From: Acidimicrobiia bacterium
Lineage (GTDB): Bacteria > Actinomycetota > Acidimicrobiia > Acidimicrobiales > Aldehydirespiratoraceae
Reading direction: 5' to 3'
Assembly: GCA_021296315.1 (NCBI GenBank)
Contig: JAGWAO010000002.1
Location: 1 to 48,817, forward strand
DNA: 48,817 bases
A program made the position numbers and the translations under genes. Positions 1,409-48,817 of this stretch are shown here, piece after piece. Below the pieces are notes generated by a model that had not been told where the DNA came from, did no database searches, and saw nothing but the letters and a program-made list of their open reading frames with translations. Each line of letters opens with the position of its first letter. Position 1 is the first letter of the stretch.

Positions 1409-2567
1409 AAGTGCGGTGCCAGCGGAACAGGGCCATGCCGTCGCGGTTGGTATCCGGGAGCAGCATCGCGCCGTCGCCGTGCGGCAGCCACGGTTCAGGT
1501 GGAGGTGGCCGAGGCTCCAAGCGGTCGTCTCGGGAAGCGTGCTCGGCCACAGCCGATGTCTCCGCTGCGGTGAGGGTGCAGACGCTGTAGACGAGCTGCC
1601 CGCCGGGACGCAGCAGGCTGGTGGCCGCGTCGAGCAAGGTCCACTGCAGCTCGGCCAGTCGAGGAACCGCCGTCCGCGCGATGCGCCAGCGCGCGTCCGG
1701 GCGGCGTCTCAGGGTTCCCAGGCCGCTGCACGGCGCGTCCACCAGCACTGCGTCAAACCGGCCGGGACGCAGCGGTGGGTACCGACCGTCGGCCGCCGTG
1801 ACCAGCATCGATTCAGCTCTCAGGGCCCTCCGGTTGGCTTCTAGCAGCCCGACCCGGCCCAAGTGCGAGTCAGAAGCAAAGACGGTCGCCCCGCGGGCAG
1901 CCAGCGCGGTGGCCTTGCCGCCCGGCGCGGCACACAAGTCAGCCACGAGAGCGCCCTCCTGCACCTCGATAGCGTCCATCACGAGCTGTGAACTCAAGTC
2001 CTGCACGTAGCCGTCGTCGCGTCGGTGCACCCGGGCGGGACCGTTCATCGACTCCAGCGCGGCCAGCGCCGTCGAGCGCCCGAGATCGTCGGCGAGTGTT
2101 TCGACGATCCAATCGGGATAACTGAGCCGAGTCGGATCGTCAGGCCAGTCCGGCACGCCTGCATCGGCGACGCGGCGCAGTACCGCGTTGACCAGGGACC
2201 GGTGCCTGCGGGGTGCGGCCGACACCGTGGCCGACACCGCCGCATAGGCGGGAGTTCCCAACTCGACGATCTGGTAGGCGCCCATGCGCAACGCGGCCCT
2301 CGCGGGTGGCGGCGGCGCGGCCACCAGGAAGGCGTCCAGAGCCCAGTCGAGGGCCCGGCGTCGGCGGGTGACGCCGTAGACGAGCTCGGTGGTGAAGGCT
2401 CGGTCGCGCTCGTCGAGATCGGACTGGGCCAGCGCGGCTCCAAGGGCCACATTGGCGTAGGCGCCCTCCGCGTCCACCCGGACCAGCACATCGAGCGCTA
2501 CCCGGCGGGCGTCGCTGACCGCTGGCCTACCACTCGGGTCCTTGTAGGAGCGCGAGGTCCGGCTCAC
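1407..2567 (-). CDS. rsmB: 16S rRNA m5C967 methyltransferase, RsmB/Sun family
   Basis: Methylates C967 of 16S rRNA using SAM. From a GTG at 2567 the product is 386 residues: a NusB-like RNA-binding domain (about 18-135), then a Rossmann methyltransferase domain with DLCAAPGGK at 210-218, DAPCSGLG at 277-284 (Cys280) and YSVCTL (Cys330), the two cysteines used by RNA m5C methyltransferases. The GTG overlaps the fmt stop as GTGA, implying translational coupling; a longer upstream frame only overlaps fmt and has no family similarity. It is somewhat shorter than the 430-450 residues common in proteobacteria. The stop codon abuts a family B palindrome. Confidence 0.93.
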   Translation of the reverse strand: MSRTSRSYKDPSGRPAVSDARRVALDVLVRVDAEGAYANVALGAALAQSDLDERDRAFTTELVYGVTRRRRALDWALDAFLVAAPPPPARAALRMGAYQIVELGTPAYAAVSATVSAAPRRHRSLVNAVLRRVADAGVPDWPDDPTRLSYPDWIVETLADDLGRSTALAALESMNGPARVHRRDDGYVQDLSSQLVMDAIEVQEGALVADLCAAPGGKATALAARGATVFASDSHLGRVGLLEANRRALRAESMLVTAADGRYPPLRPGRFDAVLVDAPCSGLGTLRRRPDARWRIARTAVPRLAELQWTLLDAATSLLRPGGQLVYSVCTLTAAETSAVAEHASRDDRLEPRPPPPEPWLPHGDGAMLLPDTNRDGMALFRWHRT

Positions 2568-4053: not shown

Positions 4054-4878
4054 ATGGCCGATCCCGCCGCCAAGAGGCCGAGCGATCAAACGGTGAACCC
4101 GCGGGGATCGGGTGCGGCGTCGAGCGAGGCCGTGGCCCGAGCGGCCCGTGAGCGCAGCGAACAGGAGCGGGAGACACAACCCCTCACCGCGAAACCCTCG
4201 CCATCCATCCGCGCTCGCTCTGAGCCCGCCAGCGGCCAGTACTTCGAGGCCGAACCCCTGGCTGCGACTGCGCCTCGCACGATTGCGGTCAACATCAGTG
4301 GGATGCAACTGAGATTCGTGACCGATTCGGGCGTGTTCTCGCCCGACCGGCTGGATGCGGGAACGCGGCTGCTGCTGCTCGAGGCGCCGCCGCTCGGTGC
4401 CCGCGACCGGAGGGTGCTCGACCTCGGATGCGGCTGGGGTCCCATCGCCTGTGTCACCGGGCTGCGCTCCCCCGCGGCTGAGGTGCTGGCCGTGGACGTG
4501 AACGAACGGGCATTGAGACTCGCTGTCGGCAACGCCGAGGCGAACGGCGCCGGCAACGTGACCGTCGCCCACCCCGATGAGGTGAGCCCGACCCGCCGCT
4601 TCGACCGCATCCTCTGCAATCCCCCCATACGGGTCGGCAAGTCCGCCCTCCAAGGGTTGCTGGCTGCCTGGCTCGACCGCCTCGCACCCGGCGGGCGGGC
4701 CCATCTGGTCGTGCATCGCCACCTGGGCAGCGACTCCCTGGCCCGGTGGCTCGAGCAGCGGGGACATGAGGTGACCCGGCTGGTGTCGAGATCCGGATAC
4801 CGGCTCCTGGATGTGGGGCCCCGCGGCGGGGAATCCGCCTCTCCACGGCCGGAACCTGCGGCTGGGAGAGCACCATGA
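4054..4878 (+). CDS. RsmC/RlmG-like class I SAM methyltransferase with a repeat-derived N-terminus
   Basis: 274 residues. The methyltransferase part starts near residue 61 (GQYFEAEPLA) and has GVFS at 93-96, LDLGCGWG at 122-129 (SAM binding), VDVNERAL at 146-153 and CNPPIR at 187-192, the NPP-type motif IV of base N-methyltransferases, as in 16S or 23S rRNA guanine methyltransferases. The exact target is unknown. The first 60 residues are unusual: bases 4073-4222 are a copy of dispersed repeat family A, translated here with the core read as VARAARERSEQERE. The possible starts (ATG 4054, GTG 4093, GTG 4132) all include that core, so its translation seems unavoidable. The gene ends in an ATGA overlap with the next. 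Confidence 0.8.
   Translation: MADPAAKRPSDQTVNPRGSGAASSEAVARAARERSEQERETQPLTAKPSPSIRARSEPASGQYFEAEPLAATAPRTIAVNISGMQLRFVTDSGVFSPDRLDAGTRLLLLEAPPLGARDRRVLDLGCGWGPIACVTGLRSPAAEVLAVDVNERALRLAVGNAEANGAGNVTVAHPDEVSPTRRFDRILCNPPIRVGKSALQGLLAAWLDRLAPGGRAHLVVHRHLGSDSLARWLEQRGHEVTRLVSRSGYRLLDVGPRGGESASPRPEPAAGRAP
4073..4222 (+). repeat. Repeat family A, copy inside a coding sequence
   Basis: Begins with AGAGGCCGAGCG (4073-4084); after about 40 variable bases comes the conserved core GAGGCCGTGGCC ... CCCGTGAGCGCAGCGAAC ... GGAGCGGGAGACACAAC (about 4126-4180). It ends near CGCTCGCTCTGAGC (4212-4225), a slightly deleted inverse of the left end. The copy is in frame with the methyltransferase and has no stop codon in that frame. 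Confidence 0.8.
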
Positions 4879-13008: not shown

Positions 13009-16338
<3,330 letters not shown>

Positions 16339-18810: not shown

Positions 18811-19776
18811 TCACGCCGCCATCATCCTCTCACCCTCGGCGAGGTCCAGTCCCGAACCGAGCAGCAGGAACAGCACCGCCATGCGGACCGCTACGCCGTT
18901 GGCGACCTGCTCGGTTATCACCGCATTGGGCCGGTCGGCGACGTCTCCGTCGATCTCCACGCCGCGGTTCATGGGTCCGGGGTGCATGATCAGGGCGCCC
19001 TCCCCGAGCCGGTCGGCCCGGGCCGCGTCGAGGCCGTACTCGGCCCGGAACTCGCGCAGCGACGGAACCGATGCCCCGGCCTCCCGCTCCAGCTGCATCC
19101 GCAGCAGGTAGCAGATGTCGATTTCCTCGAGGACCGAATCGAAGTCATGGGTGACGGCGACGGGCCAGCCTTCGAGGCTCGACGGCAGCAGAGGACGGGG
19201 CGCGACCAGGGTGACCTCCGCGCCCATGGACGTGAAGGCCAGCACATCGGAGCGGGCCACCCGGGAGTGGAGGATGTCGCCGACGATGGCCACGCGGGCG
19301 CCGTCGAGGCCCCCCAGATGGGTGCGGGCGGTGTAGAGATCCAGAAGCGCCTGGGTGGGATGCTCGTGACGGCCGTCACCGGCGTTGACGACCGAGGCGT
19401 CGATCCAGTCGGCCACCCGGTGGGGCACGCCCGCGCACGGGTGACGCACGACGATGGCGTCGATTCCCATCGCCTCGATCGTCTGCACGGTGTCTCGCAC
19501 CGACTCGCCCTTGTTCACCGACGAGGACCCGACCGAGAAGTTCACGGTGTCGGCAGACAACTGCTTGGCGGCCGCCTCGAACGACAACCGGGTGCGGGTG
19601 CTGTCCTCGTAGAACAGCCACACCACGGTCTTGCCCCGCAGGGCCGGCACCCTGGGGATGCGGCGCTGGCTCACCTCGGCGAACGAGCCGGTGAGGTCGA
19701 GAATGCGCTCTAGGTCGGGCCGGTCCAGATCGGCGATCGACAGCAGATGGCGGCGCGGCGGTGCGTGATCCGTCAC
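18811..19776 (-). CDS. pyrB: Aspartate carbamoyltransferase, catalytic subunit
   Basis: Condenses carbamoyl phosphate with aspartate. 321 residues. Carbamoyl phosphate site FYEDSTRTRLSFE (STRTR 59-63), the GDGRHEHPTQALLD segment and the aspartate loop HPGPMNRGVE are intact. No pyrI regulatory chain is present. GTG start with GGAG 6 nt upstream. The start also overlaps the stop of a 20-codon linker ORF that begins in the pyrR stop codon, so coupled translation from pyrR is plausible. Confidence 0.97.
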   Translation of the reverse strand: MTDHAPPRRHLLSIADLDRPDLERILDLTGSFAEVSQRRIPRVPALRGKTVVWLFYEDSTRTRLSFEAAAKQLSADTVNFSVGSSSVNKGESVRDTVQTIEAMGIDAIVVRHPCAGVPHRVADWIDASVVNAGDGRHEHPTQALLDLYTARTHLGGLDGARVAIVGDILHSRVARSDVLAFTSMGAEVTLVAPRPLLPSSLEGWPVAVTHDFDSVLEEIDICYLLRMQLEREAGASVPSLREFRAEYGLDAARADRLGEGALIMHPGPMNRGVEIDGDVADRPNAVITEQVANGVAVRMAVLFLLLGSGLDLAEGERMMAA

Positions 19777-19835
19777 GTCGACTCCAAAATGTGCGTCATT
19801 CCTGCGTCCATCACACCAACACCTGCGTCCGTCAC
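19773..19835 (-). other. 20-codon linker ORF bridging pyrR and pyrB
   Basis: GTG overlapping the pyrR TGA opens a frame reading MTDAGVGVMDAGMTHILEST that stops in a TGA overlapping the pyrB GTG. Both ends are thus GTGA overlaps. The frame contains a 21-bp near-duplication (GTGTGAYGGACGCAGG twice), and its MTD start matches the pyrB start MTD. It also carries the pyrB Shine-Dalgarno. It may be a coupling device or a chance frame; translation is not shown. Confidence 0.45.
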
Positions 19836-22082: not shown

Positions 22083-22847
22083 TCAGGAGGTCTGCTCCCC
22101 GGCTCGGGTGCGGGCGAACACCAGCATCTGCGGGCCATAGGGCTTCCCAGACGGGTGTCGGGGTGCATCCACTCGGCGCAGACCGGCCCCGCGGGCCACG
22201 ACCAGCGACGCGGGGTTGTCCGCTCCGATCTCGGCCATCACCGCCTCCAGCGGCCCCTCCGACAGCACCCAGTCCACCACCAACCGGGCCGCCTCGGTGG
22301 CTCGACCCTGGCCGCGCCAACTCTCGGCGATCCACCAGCCGACCAGCGCGGCCCGCCGGACGGGGTCGAAGCCACTCAACCCCACCTCGCCGATCACCGT
22401 TCCCGTCGGCGGATCGGTGACGGCCAGATCAACAGACCGCCCCTCGGTCCACGCCTGCTCACGCTGGGAAATCCAACGGACGGCGAGCGCCTCATCCGCG
22501 GGCTCTGGGACCCTCAAACGGTCCCGGATCTCTGGATCGTGCCACGCGGCCAACAGAGCCGGAGCATCTGTGAGTCGCCAAGGCCGCAGCAGGGTCGTGG
22601 GACCGGCGAGCCGAGGCACGGGCAGGACCATGGCGGCCACCGAACCCCCAGAGGCCACCGAACCCTCAGGGGCCGCCAGATTCTCAGGGGCCGGCGAACC
22701 CCCAGAGGCCACCGAGTCCTCAGGGGCCGCCAGATTCTCAGGGGCCGGCGAACCCCCCGAGGCCACCGAACCCTCAGGGGCCGCCAGATTCTCAGGGGCC
22801 GGCGAACCCCGGGAGGCCGCGGACCACGCTGGGGCCGCACCGCTCAT
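22083..22847 (-). CDS. RimJ/RimL-like GNAT N-acetyltransferase with a repeat-encoded N-terminus
   Basis: 254 residues. The acetyltransferase domain (from about residue 75) has TTLLRPWRLTDAPALLAAW, a GEVGLSGFDPVRRAALVGWW strand pair, and the acetyl-CoA loop ESWRGQGRATEAARL; substrate unknown. Residues 14-67 are three perfect-length 18-residue repeats (GSPAPENLAAPEGSVASG type). The ATG overlaps the nusB stop as ATGA, which supports translation of the repeat region; an ATG at 22631 would give the catalytic domain alone. The linker is Pro/Ala/Ser-rich and presumably disordered. Confidence 0.82.
   Translation of the reverse strand: MSGAAPAWSAASRGSPAPENLAAPEGSVASGGSPAPENLAAPEDSVASGGSPAPENLAAPEGSVASGGSVAAMVLPVPRLAGPTTLLRPWRLTDAPALLAAWHDPEIRDRLRVPEPADEALAVRWISQREQAWTEGRSVDLAVTDPPTGTVIGEVGLSGFDPVRRAALVGWWIAESWRGQGRATEAARLVVDWVLSEGPLEAVMAEIGADNPASLVVARGAGLRRVDAPRHPSGKPYGPQMLVFARTRAGEQTS
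22647..22808 (-). repeat. In-frame 54-bp minisatellite, three copies
   Basis: Three 54-bp units encode residues 14-67 of the acetyltransferase; the second unit differs by Gly to Asp. A partial fourth follows. The unit length is a multiple of three, so copy-number changes would keep the frame. Confidence 0.85.
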
Positions 22848-27061: not shown

Positions 27062-28656
27062 CAGCAGTACCCGAGCTCACGGCAGACGGAGACTTGCTCC
27101 TCGTGCTCCTCCAGCGTGCGGTGGAAGTGGTGGGCGCCTCGCACCCCTCCCTCATCGGTGCGAACGTAGAACAGCCAGTCGCCGTCGACGGGCTGAAGCG
27201 CAGCCATCAGCGACGCCTCGCCCGGCGCCGATATCGGCGTGGGGGGCAGGCCCGTGACCACCCGAGTGTTCCAGGGCGACTCCAGGCGGATGTCGGCGGA
27301 GGTGAGATCGGCACACGACTTGGCCGCGGCGTAGCAGGCGGTGGCGTCGATGTCGAGGCGCATGCCCTCAGCCAGCCGGTTGTAGATCACCCGGGAGATC
27401 TTGGCCCGGTCCTCGGACACCAGAGCCTCCTCCTCGATGAGGCTGGCCACGATGATCAACTCATAGGGCACCAGACCCAATTCGACGATGTCGGGATGGA
27501 GACCGGGATCCTCCAGCAGACGAGCGAAACGGCGATCGAACTCGTCGGAGAGGCGCAGCAGGAAACCGTGCTCGTCGGCGAGGTCATCGGCGTTGATGTC
27601 GTAGGTGGCCGGGAAGAGCATGCCTTCGAGGCTCCTTACCGGCGCTTCGTCGGGCAGGTAGGACGCCTCCCGCACCAGCGAGATGTAGGCCGCCTCCAGG
27701 TCCTCCCACTCGAAGGCGGGATTCTCCTCCATGAGGCGCAGGGCCATCTCGCTCCAGCGAAGGCCCTCGGGAATGCGTACGAGTTCGAAGACCTCACGCT
27801 CCGGTCCGGCCCCAAACACTGTGCGTACCGAGGCGAAGTCCATGTTCTCATAGAGGATGTAGTCGCCGGCCTCCACGGCCACCACCGTGTCGCATCCCAG
27901 GAAACCGGTGATGGTCAGCTCGCCGTCGCAGCGCAGCCAGTAGCGGAAGACGGTGGCGTTGGATATGACTCCCGCATTCTGGAGCTCCCCGGCGATCTCG
28001 TTGACGGAGGCTCCCTGGGGAATGGTCAACTCGACCGCCGCGCCCGGCAGCCCCTCCGGGGTGATCTGAGCGTCCACCCAGCCGTAGATTCGCCCCCGAG
28101 CCCACCCGACGGCCAGCACCACCACCACCACCAGCACCACCAAGCGGACGAACCCGCCCCAGAAGGGGCGGTAGCGCACCCAGTTGCGGTCGTCGGCGTC
28201 GTAGACGGGATCGACAAAGGGGTCGTCGCCGAGTTCCTCCTCCACCACCACCATCGCGCCCTGATCGACAGTCGACCAGCCGGCCCGAGACGAGACGGCA
28301 GGCTGCTGATCGCGACGGGCCGCCTTGCGGGCCGTCTTCCGGTAGGAGCGCTGGGCGCGGTGCGCAGAACGCTTAGGCCGGCGATCGCGACGGTTCTTGG
28401 GAGGCTTGGGGGGCCTGGTACGGCGGACGGCAGGCCCAGGTGACGCAACCGGACCGGCAGGATCGGCGGCGCGTGGGCGCGGGGCAGCCGAGGTCCGCGA
28501 GGCGGCAGCCTTCGGACGGGCAGCCTTCGGACGGGCAGCCTTCGGACGGGCAACCTTCGGACGGGCAGCCTTCGGACGGGCTCCGCCATCGGGGCGTCCG
28601 GTGATGAAGTCCGACAGCTTCGACGGGCGTCGAGCGCCCTGACCGCGGTCAGCCAC
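27061..28656 (-). CDS. mltG: Endolytic murein transglycosylase MltG (YceG-like)
   Basis: Inner-membrane enzyme cutting nascent glycan strands. About 531 residues from a GTG at 28656, overlapping the ruvX stop; a TTG at 28674 is possible. Layout: a long basic, disordered cytoplasmic N-terminus including five RPKAA repeats, one membrane segment at about 169-186, then the LysM-like and YceG domains. The catalytic Glu is in IIVASLIEEEAL (about residue 408); IVYNRL-like ISRVIYNRLAEGM and NTRVVTGLPPTPISAPG are signature motifs. The ruvX-mltG-aroE order is conserved. Confidence 0.92.
   Translation of the reverse strand: MADRGQGARRPSKLSDFITGRPDGGARPKAARPKVARPKAARPKAARPKAAASRTSAAPRPRAADPAGPVASPGPAVRRTRPPKPPKNRRDRRPKRSAHRAQRSYRKTARKAARRDQQPAVSSRAGWSTVDQGAMVVVEEELGDDPFVDPVYDADDRNWVRYRPFWGGFVRLVVLVVVVVLAVGWARGRIYGWVDAQITPEGLPGAAVELTIPQGASVNEIAGELQNAGVISNATVFRYWLRCDGELTITGFLGCDTVVAVEAGDYILYENMDFASVRTVFGAGPEREVFELVRIPEGLRWSEMALRLMEENPAFEWEDLEAAYISLVREASYLPDEAPVRSLEGMLFPATYDINADDLADEHGFLLRLSDEFDRRFARLLEDPGLHPDIVELGLVPYELIIVASLIEEEALVSEDRAKISRVIYNRLAEGMRLDIDATACYAAAKSCADLTSADIRLESPWNTRVVTGLPPTPISAPGEASLMAALQPVDGDWLFYVRTDEGGVRGAHHFHRTLEEHEEQVSVCRELGYC
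28507..28581 (-). repeat. 15-bp in-frame repeat, five copies, in mltG
   Basis: Five 15-bp units encode ARPKA/V repeats in the cytoplasmic tail of MltG. Such basic Ala-Lys-Pro tracts are common in disordered regions of GC-rich genomes. Confidence 0.85.
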
Positions 28657-40575: not shown

Positions 40576-41708
40576 CGCTTCTTCTTCTTTCGGGGACGGG
40601 GAGGAATCGCGCCCGTCGCCGATCCCGCCGCGGCTCGGGGAGCCGTTCCGGACTTCCGGGCCGTGGTCGACCGCTTGGCCGCGGCCGCCTCGCCGAGCAC
40701 CGCGTCGTCGGCCGCGACCGTGCGGGTGCCGCCGCCGGCTGCCCCCCCGCCGCGCAGACGGACCCGCTCGGCGATCTCGACGTAGGCCGGCTCCCGTTCC
40801 TTCATTCTCGCCACCACCGCGGCTGCTACGAACAACGAAGAGTAGGTGCCCACTACGATTCCCACCAGCAGAGCGACGGCGAACTCCTGAAGCGTCACCG
40901 CGCCCAGCACGAATGAACCGATCACCAGCATCGACGCCACCGGGATCATCGAGGTGATGGAAGTGTTGACCGACCGCATCAACACCTGGTTGAGCGACAG
41001 GTTCATCATCTCGGTGTAGGTGTAGCGACCGGTGGCCGACACCCGGCCCACCACCTCACGGACCTTGTCGTACACGACGATGGTGTCGTACAGCGAGTAG
41101 CCCATGATGGTCAGGAACGCGATGACCGTGGCCGGGGTGACCTCGAACTGGAACACGGAGTAGAAGCCCACCGACACCACGATGTCGTGGACGACCGCCA
41201 CCAGGGCCCCCACCGCCATCTTCCACTCGAGCCTTATGGCGATGTAGACGGCGATGAGCGCGAAGAAGGTGATCAGCGCGTTGCGGGCCTTGCCGGTTAT
41301 CTCCGAGCCCCACGACGGTCCGACAGTGGTCACGCTCACGTCGTCGGTGGTGACGCCGGCGAGGTCGGCCAGCGCGTTGCGCACGCTGTCAACTGCGGTG
41401 GGAGCCTCGATGTCGGCCCGGACCCTGATGGTGTCGCCGCCGAGCGTCTGGATCTTGGCGTCAGCCGCGCCCGTGCCCCGCAGAGCGTCCCGGGCCTCGG
41501 CCACCGACACCTGTGGCGCGGGCACCTCCCAGGAGGTGCCTCCCTCGAACTCGATCCCCAGATCGATGCCGCGGATCCCGAAGCTGGCCACGCTCACCAC
41601 CACGGCCGCCAGCGAGCCGACAAGGGCGCGCCGCCACAGCCGCGGAAAGTCGATCTGCTGCTGCCCGCGGTACAGCGATCCCAGCACGCCCAACGACCAG
41701 CCGGTCAC
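40572..41708 (-). CDS. secF: Protein translocase subunit SecF
   Basis: Membrane partner of SecD using proton motive force in late protein export. 378 residues from a GTG at 41708 with GGGAG 7-8 nt upstream. The first periplasmic motif GIDLGIEFEGGTSWEV follows TM1; FFALIAVYIAIRLEWK, ALVAVVHDIVVSVGFYSVF, MGYSLYDTIVVYDKVRE and the C-terminal TM5-6 are typical. The tail is unusually basic, ending RPRKKKKR. The start lies in the third copy of a 35-bp tandem repeat that duplicates the secD/secF junction. Confidence 0.95.
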   Translation of the reverse strand: MTGWSLGVLGSLYRGQQQIDFPRLWRRALVGSLAAVVVSVASFGIRGIDLGIEFEGGTSWEVPAPQVSVAEARDALRGTGAADAKIQTLGGDTIRVRADIEAPTAVDSVRNALADLAGVTTDDVSVTTVGPSWGSEITGKARNALITFFALIAVYIAIRLEWKMAVGALVAVVHDIVVSVGFYSVFQFEVTPATVIAFLTIMGYSLYDTIVVYDKVREVVGRVSATGRYTYTEMMNLSLNQVLMRSVNTSITSMIPVASMLVIGSFVLGAVTLQEFAVALLVGIVVGTYSSLFVAAAVVARMKEREPAYVEIAERVRLRGGGAAGGGTRTVAADDAVLGEAAAAKRSTTARKSGTAPRAAAGSATGAIPPRPRKKKKR

Positions 41709-41793
41709 GACGCCGCTCCCGGCATGCCACCCACCGCCGTCACGACACGGCTCCCCGCACGGCACCCATCGCGGTCACGACCCCGCTCCCGGC
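41706..41793 (-). repeat. 35-bp tandem repeat at the secD/secF junction
   Basis: Units begin (plus strand) at 41706, 41741 and 41776; the last is partial. Each minus-strand unit carries GGGAG or GGGGAG, then TCGTGAC, that is, a Shine-Dalgarno, a GTG and an overlapping TGA. GTGs at 41778 and 41743 open 12-codon frames (MTAMGAVRGAVS and MTAVGGMPGAAS), each ending in a TGA that overlaps the next GTG; the last GTG is secF. Confidence 0.85.
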
Positions 41794-43640: not shown

Positions 43641-44043
43641 TCTCGCTCCTGTTCGCTGCGCTCACGGGCCGCTCAGGCCACGGCCTCACAAGCTCGGCCT
43701 CTGGGCTTCCCGCTCCTGTTCGCCTCACAAGCTCGGCCTCTGGGCTTCCCGCTCCTGTTCGCTGCGCTCACGGGCCGCTCAGGCCACGGCCACACAAGCT
43801 CGGCCTCTGGGCTTCCCGCACCAGTTCGCAGCGCTCACGGGCCGCTCAGGCCACGGCCTCACAAGCTCGGCCACTGGGCTTAACGCACCTGATCGCTCCG
43901 CTCACCCGCCGCTCAGGCCACGGCCTCACACGCACGGCCACTGGGCTACCCGCACCTGTTCGCTGCGCTCACCGGCCGCTCAGGCCACGGCCTCACAAGC
44001 TCGGCCTCAGGGCTTCCCGGACCTGTTCGCTGCGCTCACGGGC
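43641..44043 (-). repeat. Tandem array of 67-bp units of repeat family A
   Basis: Units (plus-strand coordinates): partial 43641-43702, a unit with a 28-bp internal deletion 43703-43741, full units 43742-43808, 43809-43875, 43876-43942 and 43943-44009, and a partial unit 44010-44043. Each combines AGAGGCCGAGC with the family core (GAGGCCGTGGCC, CCCGTGAGCGCAGCGAAC), the variable stretch being cut to 4 nt. Units abut with no spacers, so this is not CRISPR. The array occupies the 412-bp tgt-yajC gap and encodes the last residues and stop of Tgt. Confidence 0.9.
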
Positions 44044-47408: not shown

Positions 47409-47528
47409 CACGGTGAAGCGTTGTGTCTCCCGCTCCTGTTGGCTGCGCTCACGGGCCGCTCGTGCCACGGCCTCGCTGCAAGTCTCCCCGGACCTCGTCA
47501 TCAATCGCCGCCGTTCCGCTCGGCCTCT
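47409..47528 (-). repeat. Repeat family A, copy between ruvA and ruvB
   Basis: Minus strand: AGAGGCCGAGCGG (47516-47528) directly at the ruvA stop codon, about 40 variable bases, then the core (GCGAGGCCGTGGCACGAGCG ... GTGAGCGCAGCCAACAGGAG) and GAGACACAACGCTTCACCG, which matches the 4.1-kb copy. No right-hand inverted end is recognisable. Confidence 0.8.
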
Positions 47529-48142
47529 CAGGCGGCGGCACCGGCTAGGCGCCGCAGCGCCTCGCGCAGCAGCAGACCGGCGTCATCGCCTGCAGGCAAC
47601 TCGGCCAACACGCCCCTGATCTCCTCGGTGCCGTAACCCAGCTCGTCGAGCGCAGCCCGCACGTCGTTGCGGGCGTCGTCGTGCGCCGCGGGAACGGCTG
47701 CGAGGCCCTCCGTGCCGGGGGGCGCTTCGACCTCGGGCAGGTCGAGGCGCGACTTCAGCTCCACCAGCATCCGCACCGCGGTCTTGGGCCCCACCCCCGG
47801 TACCAGGCACAACATGTCCACATCGTCTTCGGCCACAGCCCGGCGAAGGGCGTCGGGGTGGTGCACGGCCAGGATCGACAGCGCCAGGCTGGGACCCACA
47901 CCGCGAGAGCCGATCAGCGCCTCGAAGGTCCGTCGCTCGTCCAGCGTCGAGAACCCGTACAGCGTCTGCGCGTCCTCGCGCACGATGTGGCTGATGTGGA
48001 CGAACACCTCTGAGCCCAGCAGGCCCGCGGCCGCGGCCGTCCGGGGCGTGGCCTGCACCCGGTAGCCGACCCCGGACACCTCGACCACCAGCTCGGCGTC
48101 CGGTGTCCGGGCCAGCAGCTCGCCCCGCAGAGACCCGATCAT
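47528..48142 (-). CDS. ruvA: Holliday junction DNA helicase subunit RuvA
   Basis: Tetrameric junction-binding protein that loads RuvB. 204 residues: OB-fold domain I (MIGSLRGELLARTPDAELVVEVSGVGYRV), HhH domain II (GSRGVGPSLALSILAVH, CLVPGVGPKTAVRMLVELK), and C-terminal domain III (DVRAALDELGYGTEEIRGVL). The ATG at 48142 is the innermost of six ATGs in a 17/18-bp tandem repeat; only this one gives the full protein. Confidence 0.95.
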   Translation of the reverse strand: MIGSLRGELLARTPDAELVVEVSGVGYRVQATPRTAAAAGLLGSEVFVHISHIVREDAQTLYGFSTLDERRTFEALIGSRGVGPSLALSILAVHHPDALRRAVAEDDVDMLCLVPGVGPKTAVRMLVELKSRLDLPEVEAPPGTEGLAAVPAAHDDARNDVRAALDELGYGTEEIRGVLAELPAGDDAGLLLREALRRLAGAAA

Positions 48143-48231
48143 CGCAGAGACCCAATCATCGCAGGAGCCCGATCATCGCAGAGATTCCGATCATCGCAGG
48201 GATCCGATCATCGCAGAGATTCCGATCATCG
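48130..48231 (-). repeat. 17/18-bp tandem repeat of the ruvC/ruvA stop-start junction
   Basis: Six units (48130-48146, 48147-48163, 48164-48180, 48181-48198, 48199-48215, 48216-48231), each carrying CGATGATCGG on the minus strand. ATGs lie at 48229, 48211, 48194, 48176, 48159 and 48142. The first overlaps the ruvC stop (ATGA). Frames 48229-48191 and 48194-48156 (12 codons each, MIGISAMIGSLR and MIGISAMIGLLR) and 48159-48139 (MIGSLR) each end in a TGA overlapping the next ATG; the last ATG is ruvA. Confidence 0.9.
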
Positions 48232-48741
48232 GGCACCGCTTCCGACCTCGGCCCGCCGGCTCGCCGCCGCGGGCGGTCCCATGCGGGCAAGGTGGCAGAG
48301 GGCGACGGCCACCGCGTCGGCGGCATCGGACGGATGCAGCAGCTCTCCGAGCCCGAGCAGCACCCGGACCATTTCGGCGATCTCCTGCTTGTCGGCACCG
48401 CCCCAGCCCGCCACCGCCTCCTTCACCTCGTTCGGCGAGTACTCCACCACGTCGCAGCCGGCCGCGGCCGACTCGGCCAGCACAACACCGACGGCTTGCC
48501 CGACGGACATGGCCGTGGCCACATTGCGCTGGAACAGCACCCGCTCCACCGCGACCACGTCGGGCTTCAGTTCGGTGATCAGCGACCGAACGTCGGACTG
48601 CAGTTCGGCCAGTCGCAAGGCCCGGTCCATCTCCGCGGGCGTGGTCAGCACCCCGGCCGCCTCGGCGGTGGGCTTGCGCCCCTGCCGGACCGCACCGTAA
48701 CCGCAGCGCGAGAGCCCCGGATCGATGCCCAATACGAACAC
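48226..48741 (-). CDS. ruvC: Holliday junction resolvase RuvC
   Basis: Cuts Holliday junctions symmetrically. 171 residues from a GTG at 48741 (MFVLGIDPGLSRCGYG). The acidic tetrad is complete: Asp7, Glu66 (VAVERVLFQ), Asp139 and Asp142 (HPSDAADA). A TTG at 48771 would add ten residues lacking family similarity; the GTG is preferred and has TAGAGT 7 nt upstream. The stop overlaps the first ATG of the tandem repeat leading to ruvA. Confidence 0.94.
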   Translation of the reverse strand: MFVLGIDPGLSRCGYGAVRQGRKPTAEAAGVLTTPAEMDRALRLAELQSDVRSLITELKPDVVAVERVLFQRNVATAMSVGQAVGVVLAESAAAGCDVVEYSPNEVKEAVAGWGGADKQEIAEMVRVLLGLGELLHPSDAADAVAVALCHLARMGPPAAASRRAEVGSGAR

Positions 48742-48748
48742 ATGCGCG

Positions 48749-48754
48749 ACTCTA
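48749..48754 (-). promoter_or_regulatory. -10-like hexamer TAGAGT of ruvC
   Basis: TCAATAGAGTCG with a 7-nt spacer to the ruvC GTG (48741). It would start a leaderless ruvC-ruvA transcript. Upstream, at 48789-48797, is AGAGGCCGA, a possible family A trace at the window edge. Confidence 0.4.
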
Positions 48755-48817
48755 TTGACCCTCCCGGTCAAGAGCGCGGATGGCCGCTAGAGGCCGAACT
48801 CGCGAGACCCCGGGCCC

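Follow-up and report, generated by a model that had tools for sequence, protein, structure and literature searches.

How could ruvA remain translationally coupled to ruvC when 87 nt of tandem repeats separate the two genes? The question was raised by a 48,817-nt stretch of DNA from an Acidimicrobiia bacterium (assembly GCA_021296315.1, contig JAGWAO010000002.1, positions 1 to 48,817; hereafter the window), where the start of ruvA was found six times on the minus strand between the ruvC stop (48226) and the ruvA ATG (48142). This array is quite probably a chain of translationally coupled mini-frames. Its comparison with other gene borders led us to conclude that start duplications, apparently born by slippage at coupled junctions, would persist only where the coupling is maintained by a mini-frame relay.

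The ruvC TGA (48228-48226) shares 4 nt with the first ATG of the array (48229-48227). The five extra units listed in Table 1 encode, in order, MIGISA, MIGSLR, MIGISA, MIGLLR and MIGSLR, each of which copies the RuvA N-terminus (MIGSLRG), and they are followed by ruvA proper (ATGATCGGGTCTCTGCGGGGC). The sixth ATG was taken as the real start because the RuvA_N match (PF01330) begins at its residue 1 and RuvA homologues begin there. An original prediction, made from the sequence alone, had described six tandem copies of the ruvA start in 17- or 18-bp units; the unit lengths (18, 17, 18, 17 and 17 bp) and Tandem Repeats Finder (TRF) bore this out, the latter reporting positions 48126-48231 with a period of 17, 6.1 copies and a score of 149, as well as a second row with a period of 35 (i.e. 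18 + 17) and a score of 163. The predicted reading of the array, with the ruvC stop on the first ATG and three short frames of 12, 12 and 6 codons joined by TGA/ATG overlaps, was likewise found to be correct in all its details. Each of the four links (ruvC to mini-frame 1, 1 to 2, 2 to 3 and 3 to ruvA) is thus a 4-nt ATGA overlap, the stop/start arrangement that characterises translational coupling. The minus-strand gene order is ruvC, ruvA, ruvB and queA, with secD and secF further along.

Table 1. Position and content of the junction features, in the window unless another locus is named (TRF, Tandem Repeats Finder; ORF, open reading frame).
Feature	Position	Strand	Content	Basis
ruvC	48226..48771	-		ORF; PF02075 RuvC, E 1.7e-41
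Five extra start units	48143..48229	-		sequence; TRF 48126-48231
Unit 1	48229-48212	-	18 bp, ATGATCGGAATCTCTGCG	sequence
Unit 2	48211-48195	-	17 bp, ATGATCGGATCCCTGCG	sequence
Unit 3	48194-48177	-	18 bp, ATGATCGGAATCTCTGCG, as unit 1	sequence
Unit 4	48176-48160	-	17 bp, ATGATCGGGCTCCTGCG	sequence
Unit 5	48159-48143	-	17 bp, ATGATTGGGTCTCTGCG	sequence
Mini-frame 1	48191..48229	-	MIGISAMIGSLR, stop; 12 codons	sequence and chain walk
Mini-frame 2	48156..48194	-	MIGISAMIGLLR, stop; 12 codons	sequence and chain walk
Mini-frame 3	48139..48159	-	MIGSLR, stop; 6 codons; TGA overlaps ruvA ATG	sequence and chain walk
ruvA	47528..48142	-	true start 48142	PF01330 RuvA_N from residue 1; start conserved in relatives
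Second relay in the window, secD-secF	41705..41778	-	secD ends 41775, secF starts 41708	SecD/SecF domains; TRF 41672-41793, period 35
Single mini-frame, phosphoribosyltransferase (pyrR-like)-pyrB bridge	19773..19835	-	pyrB at 19776	Pfam
Longest chain found, locus L105 (G004:C31:13400-17400)	1925-2095		nine mini-frames, mostly 17-bp units

The host genome is a draft of 2.66 Mb in 83 contigs, and its closest named relatives are Acidimicrobiia metagenome-assembled genomes (MAGs), presumably from sponge-associated sets. Such a background could invite the suspicion of an assembly artefact. Yet, the array is short (106 bp), its units differ from one another and similar arrays occur at several genes in independently assembled genomes, which makes an artefact scarcely credible.

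A different role for the mini-frames would be only to carry translation as far as the ruvA start: the region around it would stay open, and fresh ribosomes would initiate at ruvA. Both models of coupling, by reinitiation and by RNA unfolding, are live in general (PMC12548453), and the array RNA is foldable, with a predicted energy of -74.9 kcal/mol. This fold is, however, unexceptional when compared with shuffled sequences (z -1.3), and RNA structure as such was ruled out as the function of the array for that reason. Shine-Dalgarno-like matches of more than 3 nt were absent from all six array starts, including that of ruvA where fresh ribosomes would have to load, and the fact that each step is an exact 4-nt overlap suggests that one and the same ribosome is used again. 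Unfolding is therefore a possible but somewhat unlikely explanation, and ribosomes would rather use the chain by reinitiation than merely hold the RNA open.

Junctions were compared by a chain walk, which starts at the start codon lying on the upstream stop, follows the frame to its next stop and is repeated until the downstream start is reached in frame. A spacer was considered eligible when it displayed a start codon on the upstream stop, a gap of at least 4 nt and a first frame not already entering the gene. For ruvC-ruvA, expected values were obtained by randomising spacer order and length modulo 3. Throughout the order, a direct 4-nt NTGA overlap occurred at 89 of 111 ruvC-ruvA junctions and a further five showed a 1-nt relation; the direct overlap is the ancestral state. 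Eligible ruvC-ruvA spacers were all chained (12/12, spread over several lineages and usually free of repeats), against an expectation of 3.7 (P 7e-7). Eight of these 12 lay outside the genus of the window and were mostly repeat-free, with stop-to-start spacings (gap + 4) of 8, 17, 17, 20, 23, 29, 31 and 32 nt; the 29-nt case (G038, our genomes being designated by G numbers) is ambiguous, as there is another in-frame ATG farther upstream from which ruvA might start. Within the genus (16 genomes), most ruvC-ruvA junctions displayed a single start. One added 17-bp unit was found in G003, 18 + 17 bp in G012 and the 87-nt array in G000, the genome of the window, while the 71-nt spacer of the sister species G002 forms one 24-codon frame.

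The same organization was observed at other gene borders. Between aroA and cmk, 9 of 13 eligible spacers were chained, and the chain remained intact with no extra unit, with one of 17 bp, with 18 + 17 bp, and with series of 19, 17, 18, 17, 18 and 17 or 12, 17, 16, 17, 17 and 17 bp. All six eligible secD-secF spacers were chained: that of the window (41778-41708) is made of two 35-bp GTGA units giving two 12-codon mini-frames, three others carry one 35-bp unit (G007, G009 and G014), one measures 101 nt (33 + 34 + 34; G003) and one, from another genus (G018), 38 nt. At samp-ttuA, spacers were present in 7 of 14 genomes (104, 70, 35 in four cases, and 32 nt) and chained in all seven; in the remaining genomes, the direct overlap is retained. 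Substitutions are the sole differences between the orthologous 35-nt ttuA mini-frames of four species; in a fifth, the loss of precisely one codon (3 bp) leaves a 32-nt mini-frame. The rimP-nusA chain of G007 is composed of 14, 17, 17, 19, 17 and 17 bp; in one unit the TGA is lost (ATGG), and it is the 19-bp unit that holds the entire chain in phase. In G004, the chain counts nine mini-frames and connects a gene identified by eye as P450-like with one whose product carries a glutamate/leucine dehydrogenase domain. The single mini-frame upstream of pyrB in the window begins with GTGACGGACGCAGG, which by eye resembles the pyrB start GTGACGGATCACGC. An isochorismatase-like array in G007 (L106) was excluded from the counts because its upstream ORF looks antisense. 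At rimP-nusA in G005 (L293, G005:C158), the upstream gene ends in TAA, and directly before nusA the start of this gene is duplicated as a 17-bp copy with AGGAGG in front of it; this free-standing mini-frame could load ribosomes and then pass them on.

Evidently shared spacers were then collapsed to one representative each, and the cases that had led to a locus were left out. The resulting set contained 24 groups, 19 of which were chained. For a relay alone, 6.05 would be expected (P 6e-9), and 8.19 when outcomes that fuse frames were set aside (P about 1e-6); under the most conservative null, where in-frame fusions counted as success for the null and not for the data, the expectation was 12.03 (P 0.002). 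These P values are approximate because grouping was done by eye. The chain is thus kept by selection as the spacer changes (19/24 against 8.2 expected). A genome-wide test covered 374 kb of the window genome, with gene starts predicted by a simple purpose-made gene caller. It found 15 of 41 eligible spacers relayed against 5.75 expected (P 8e-5), a count that supersedes an earlier 19/42 obtained with too loose a rule of success. The control, CTGA junctions where the upstream stop carries no start codon, gave 7 'relayed' cases out of 35 against 5.6 expected in the same 374 kb, which is not significant. In a second species of the genus (G008), 10 of 24 spacers were relayed against 4.15 expected (P 0.003), and 5 of 33 in the control against 2.85. 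The pattern search ATGAN{12,15}RTGAN{12,15}RTGA served for candidate finding only; it is unfit as statistics because its reversed-pattern control has another composition, and in-frame repeats within genes account for many of the hits.

Unit lengths were read by eye in ten arrays and were mostly 17 (n = 23) or 18 bp (n = 9), the others being 19 (n = 2), 16, 14 and 12 bp (one each). Units of 16 or 19 bp as common as those of 17 or 18 had been named beforehand as a result that would contradict the chain, and they are far from that frequency. The accompanying rule that a 16- or 19-bp unit must break the chain proved too strict and was dropped, since the arrays that contain such units retain their chain, a neighbouring 17-bp unit being able to restore the phase. 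The number of extra units varied between species, from 0, 1, 2 or 5 at ruvA to 0, 1, 2 or 6 at cmk. Together with differences at secF and ttuA, and with the correlation reported in Mycobacterium tuberculosis between the length of the repeat region upstream of fpg and fpg mRNA (PMC2734929), this variation could be taken to mean that unit number is a slippage-driven dial for the RuvA:RuvC ratio. Yet, the signal that we observed is that of a coupling kept, not varied, and such tuning seems decidedly unlikely. A broader idea, that the arrays are evolvable relays where ribosomes of whatever frame are gathered and handed on in phase, slippage of unit number adjusting the flow and tuning whole operons of the genus, is speculative and rather unlikely.

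The preferred explanation, that of a relay of coupled mini-frames, can be laid out as follows. In the ancestor, ruvC and ruvA would have been coupled through their 4-nt stop/start overlap. Replication slippage would then have copied the ruvA start in tandem and put 87 nt between the ruvC stop and the real start, a distance presumably too great for ordinary coupling. In Escherichia coli reporters, 80-100% of coupling was lost at 38 nt (PMC10666635), although a weaker distance dependence was found in other studies (PMC12548453). With so steep a loss, the 87-nt spacer would need a bridge, or most of the coupling would disappear. Since each copy supplies a start codon whose overlapping TGA closes the preceding frame, the junction would still work: a ribosome leaving ruvC would go through three rounds of termination and restart on nonsense mini-frames, and a fourth round would bring it onto ruvA. 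Duplications or indels that break the relay would be purged by selection, probably acting on RuvA supply, and those that keep it would be tolerated. The original prediction that ribosomes step from ruvC to ruvA is supported insofar as the chain is kept above chance at independent junctions in several lineages; the reinitiation itself we infer.

Several points weigh against this explanation. Spacers that are not chained were recorded for cmk (G002, G022, G023 and G041) and nusA (G004, G005 and G011), as well as among non-eligible ruvA spacers (G019 with TAG, G254 and G327 with CTGA). Coupling is therefore dispensable in places and uncoupled junctions exist. The genome-wide test depends on a purpose-made gene caller of simple design, and the comparison genomes add little, with 3/8 eligible spacers relayed in E. 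coli and 1/9 in G038, samples too small to judge. Losses at each of the four restarts could also be large. Finally, the ruvA array is inherently robust: 92% of single-base indels keep its chain, as 17 is not divisible by 3 and, whatever the frame, the TGA of an ATGA comes up before many units are read. All three frames lead to the ruvA ATG, as do 65 of 70 entry positions. The ruvA locus alone thus proves little, and the earlier statement that no unit breaks the chain, true as it is, is weak evidence when taken alone.

It is on this robustness that a neutral explanation would build, in which the array is a minisatellite produced by slippage, without translational effect, and the chain a by-product of ATGA recurring in 17-bp steps. 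Periodicity alone would survive most indels at ruvA, tandem repeats are abundant (161 TRF rows in 374 kb) and 17-bp ATGA arrays also occur where no start is served. One of these, a perfect array of ATGAGGTCGCCGAAACT, lies between opposite-strand genes of the window genome (L109, G000:C25:24200-28200, at about 1951-2005 of the locus), so that not all 17-bp ATGA arrays serve starts. A neutral origin leaves unexplained, however, the repeat-free chained spacers of other genera, the fact that chains at several loci outnumber those in shuffled or frame-randomised spacers, and the lack of excess in the CTGA control, and we consider it very unlikely.

Other repeats were noticed in the window and genus. 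A short interspersed repeat with core GCTGCGCTCACGGGCCGCTC was present in nine copies in the window against 0.01 expected (starts at 4139, 7415, 29138, 32804, 43655-43981 and 47442), one of them between ruvB and ruvA. Its 22-nt form (at most one mismatch) was counted 242 times genome-wide, in both orientations, and was found in 15 of 16 genomes of the genus. One copy accompanies the broken chain of the aroA-cmk spacer in G002. Another lies in a junction spacer of G008 (L217, G008:C12, about 14430-14580), where one open mini-frame reads through with a 4-nt overlap with both neighbours, in the manner of a mycobacterial interspersed repetitive unit (MIRU). Further tandem repeats of the window are located at 22635-22838 (54 bp), 28504-28581 (15 bp) and 43722-44043 (67 bp).

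A single -4 overlap is classical translational coupling, which is usually studied as one overlap between two genes. Here, nature strings together as many as nine such overlaps and keeps them intact despite sequence drift. Such junctions are a natural experiment that could reveal whether ribosomes pass from one stop/start overlap to the next and how much each step costs, and may help to separate reinitiation from the RNA-unfolding model. They also suggest a simple rule for the indels tolerated in bacterial operons, and call for caution since gene callers may misplace starts in these regions.

Among known systems, coupling by termination-reinitiation (Huber et al. 2019, PMC6728339; 2023, PMC10666635) shares with the relays an ATGA or GTGA overlap at each step and adjacent operon genes, some of them coding for partners in one complex. 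It involves one overlap and two genes, whereas consecutive overlaps pass here through non-coding mini-frames. Upstream ORF coupling, as in synthetic nfORF boosters (PMC13255528) and the axe-txe minigene (PMC8708949), resembles our case in that a nonsense mini-frame at or near a start affects translation; those are single ORFs, designed or natural, in contrast to a chain of up to nine links running from an upstream stop. The fpg repeat region of M. tuberculosis (PMC2734929), whose length correlates with fpg mRNA, provides a second parallel. A literature search for chained or duplicated start codons returned nothing relevant. The nearest precedent is the mycobacterial MIRU with its coupled mini-ORF (Supply et al. 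1997, as summarised in PMC12548453), which, according to that summary, can also be tandem and variable in number. An internal ORF sharing 4 nt with the flanking stop and start is common to both. MIRUs are, however, mobile dispersed elements of 40-100 bp (PMC2734929, PMC12548453), whereas the units described here are shorter (17-18 bp at ruvA and 35 bp at secF, within classes of 17-18 or 33-38 bp), build several links and, instead of one dispersed element homologous between sites, are locus-specific local copies matching the start of their own gene (ATGATCGG at ruvA, ATGAGGGTCATAG at cmk and GTGAAGTGCCGGG at ttuA). The -4 overlap and the MIRU mini-ORF were thus already known; what is new here is a multi-link relay built from local copies of a gene's own start.
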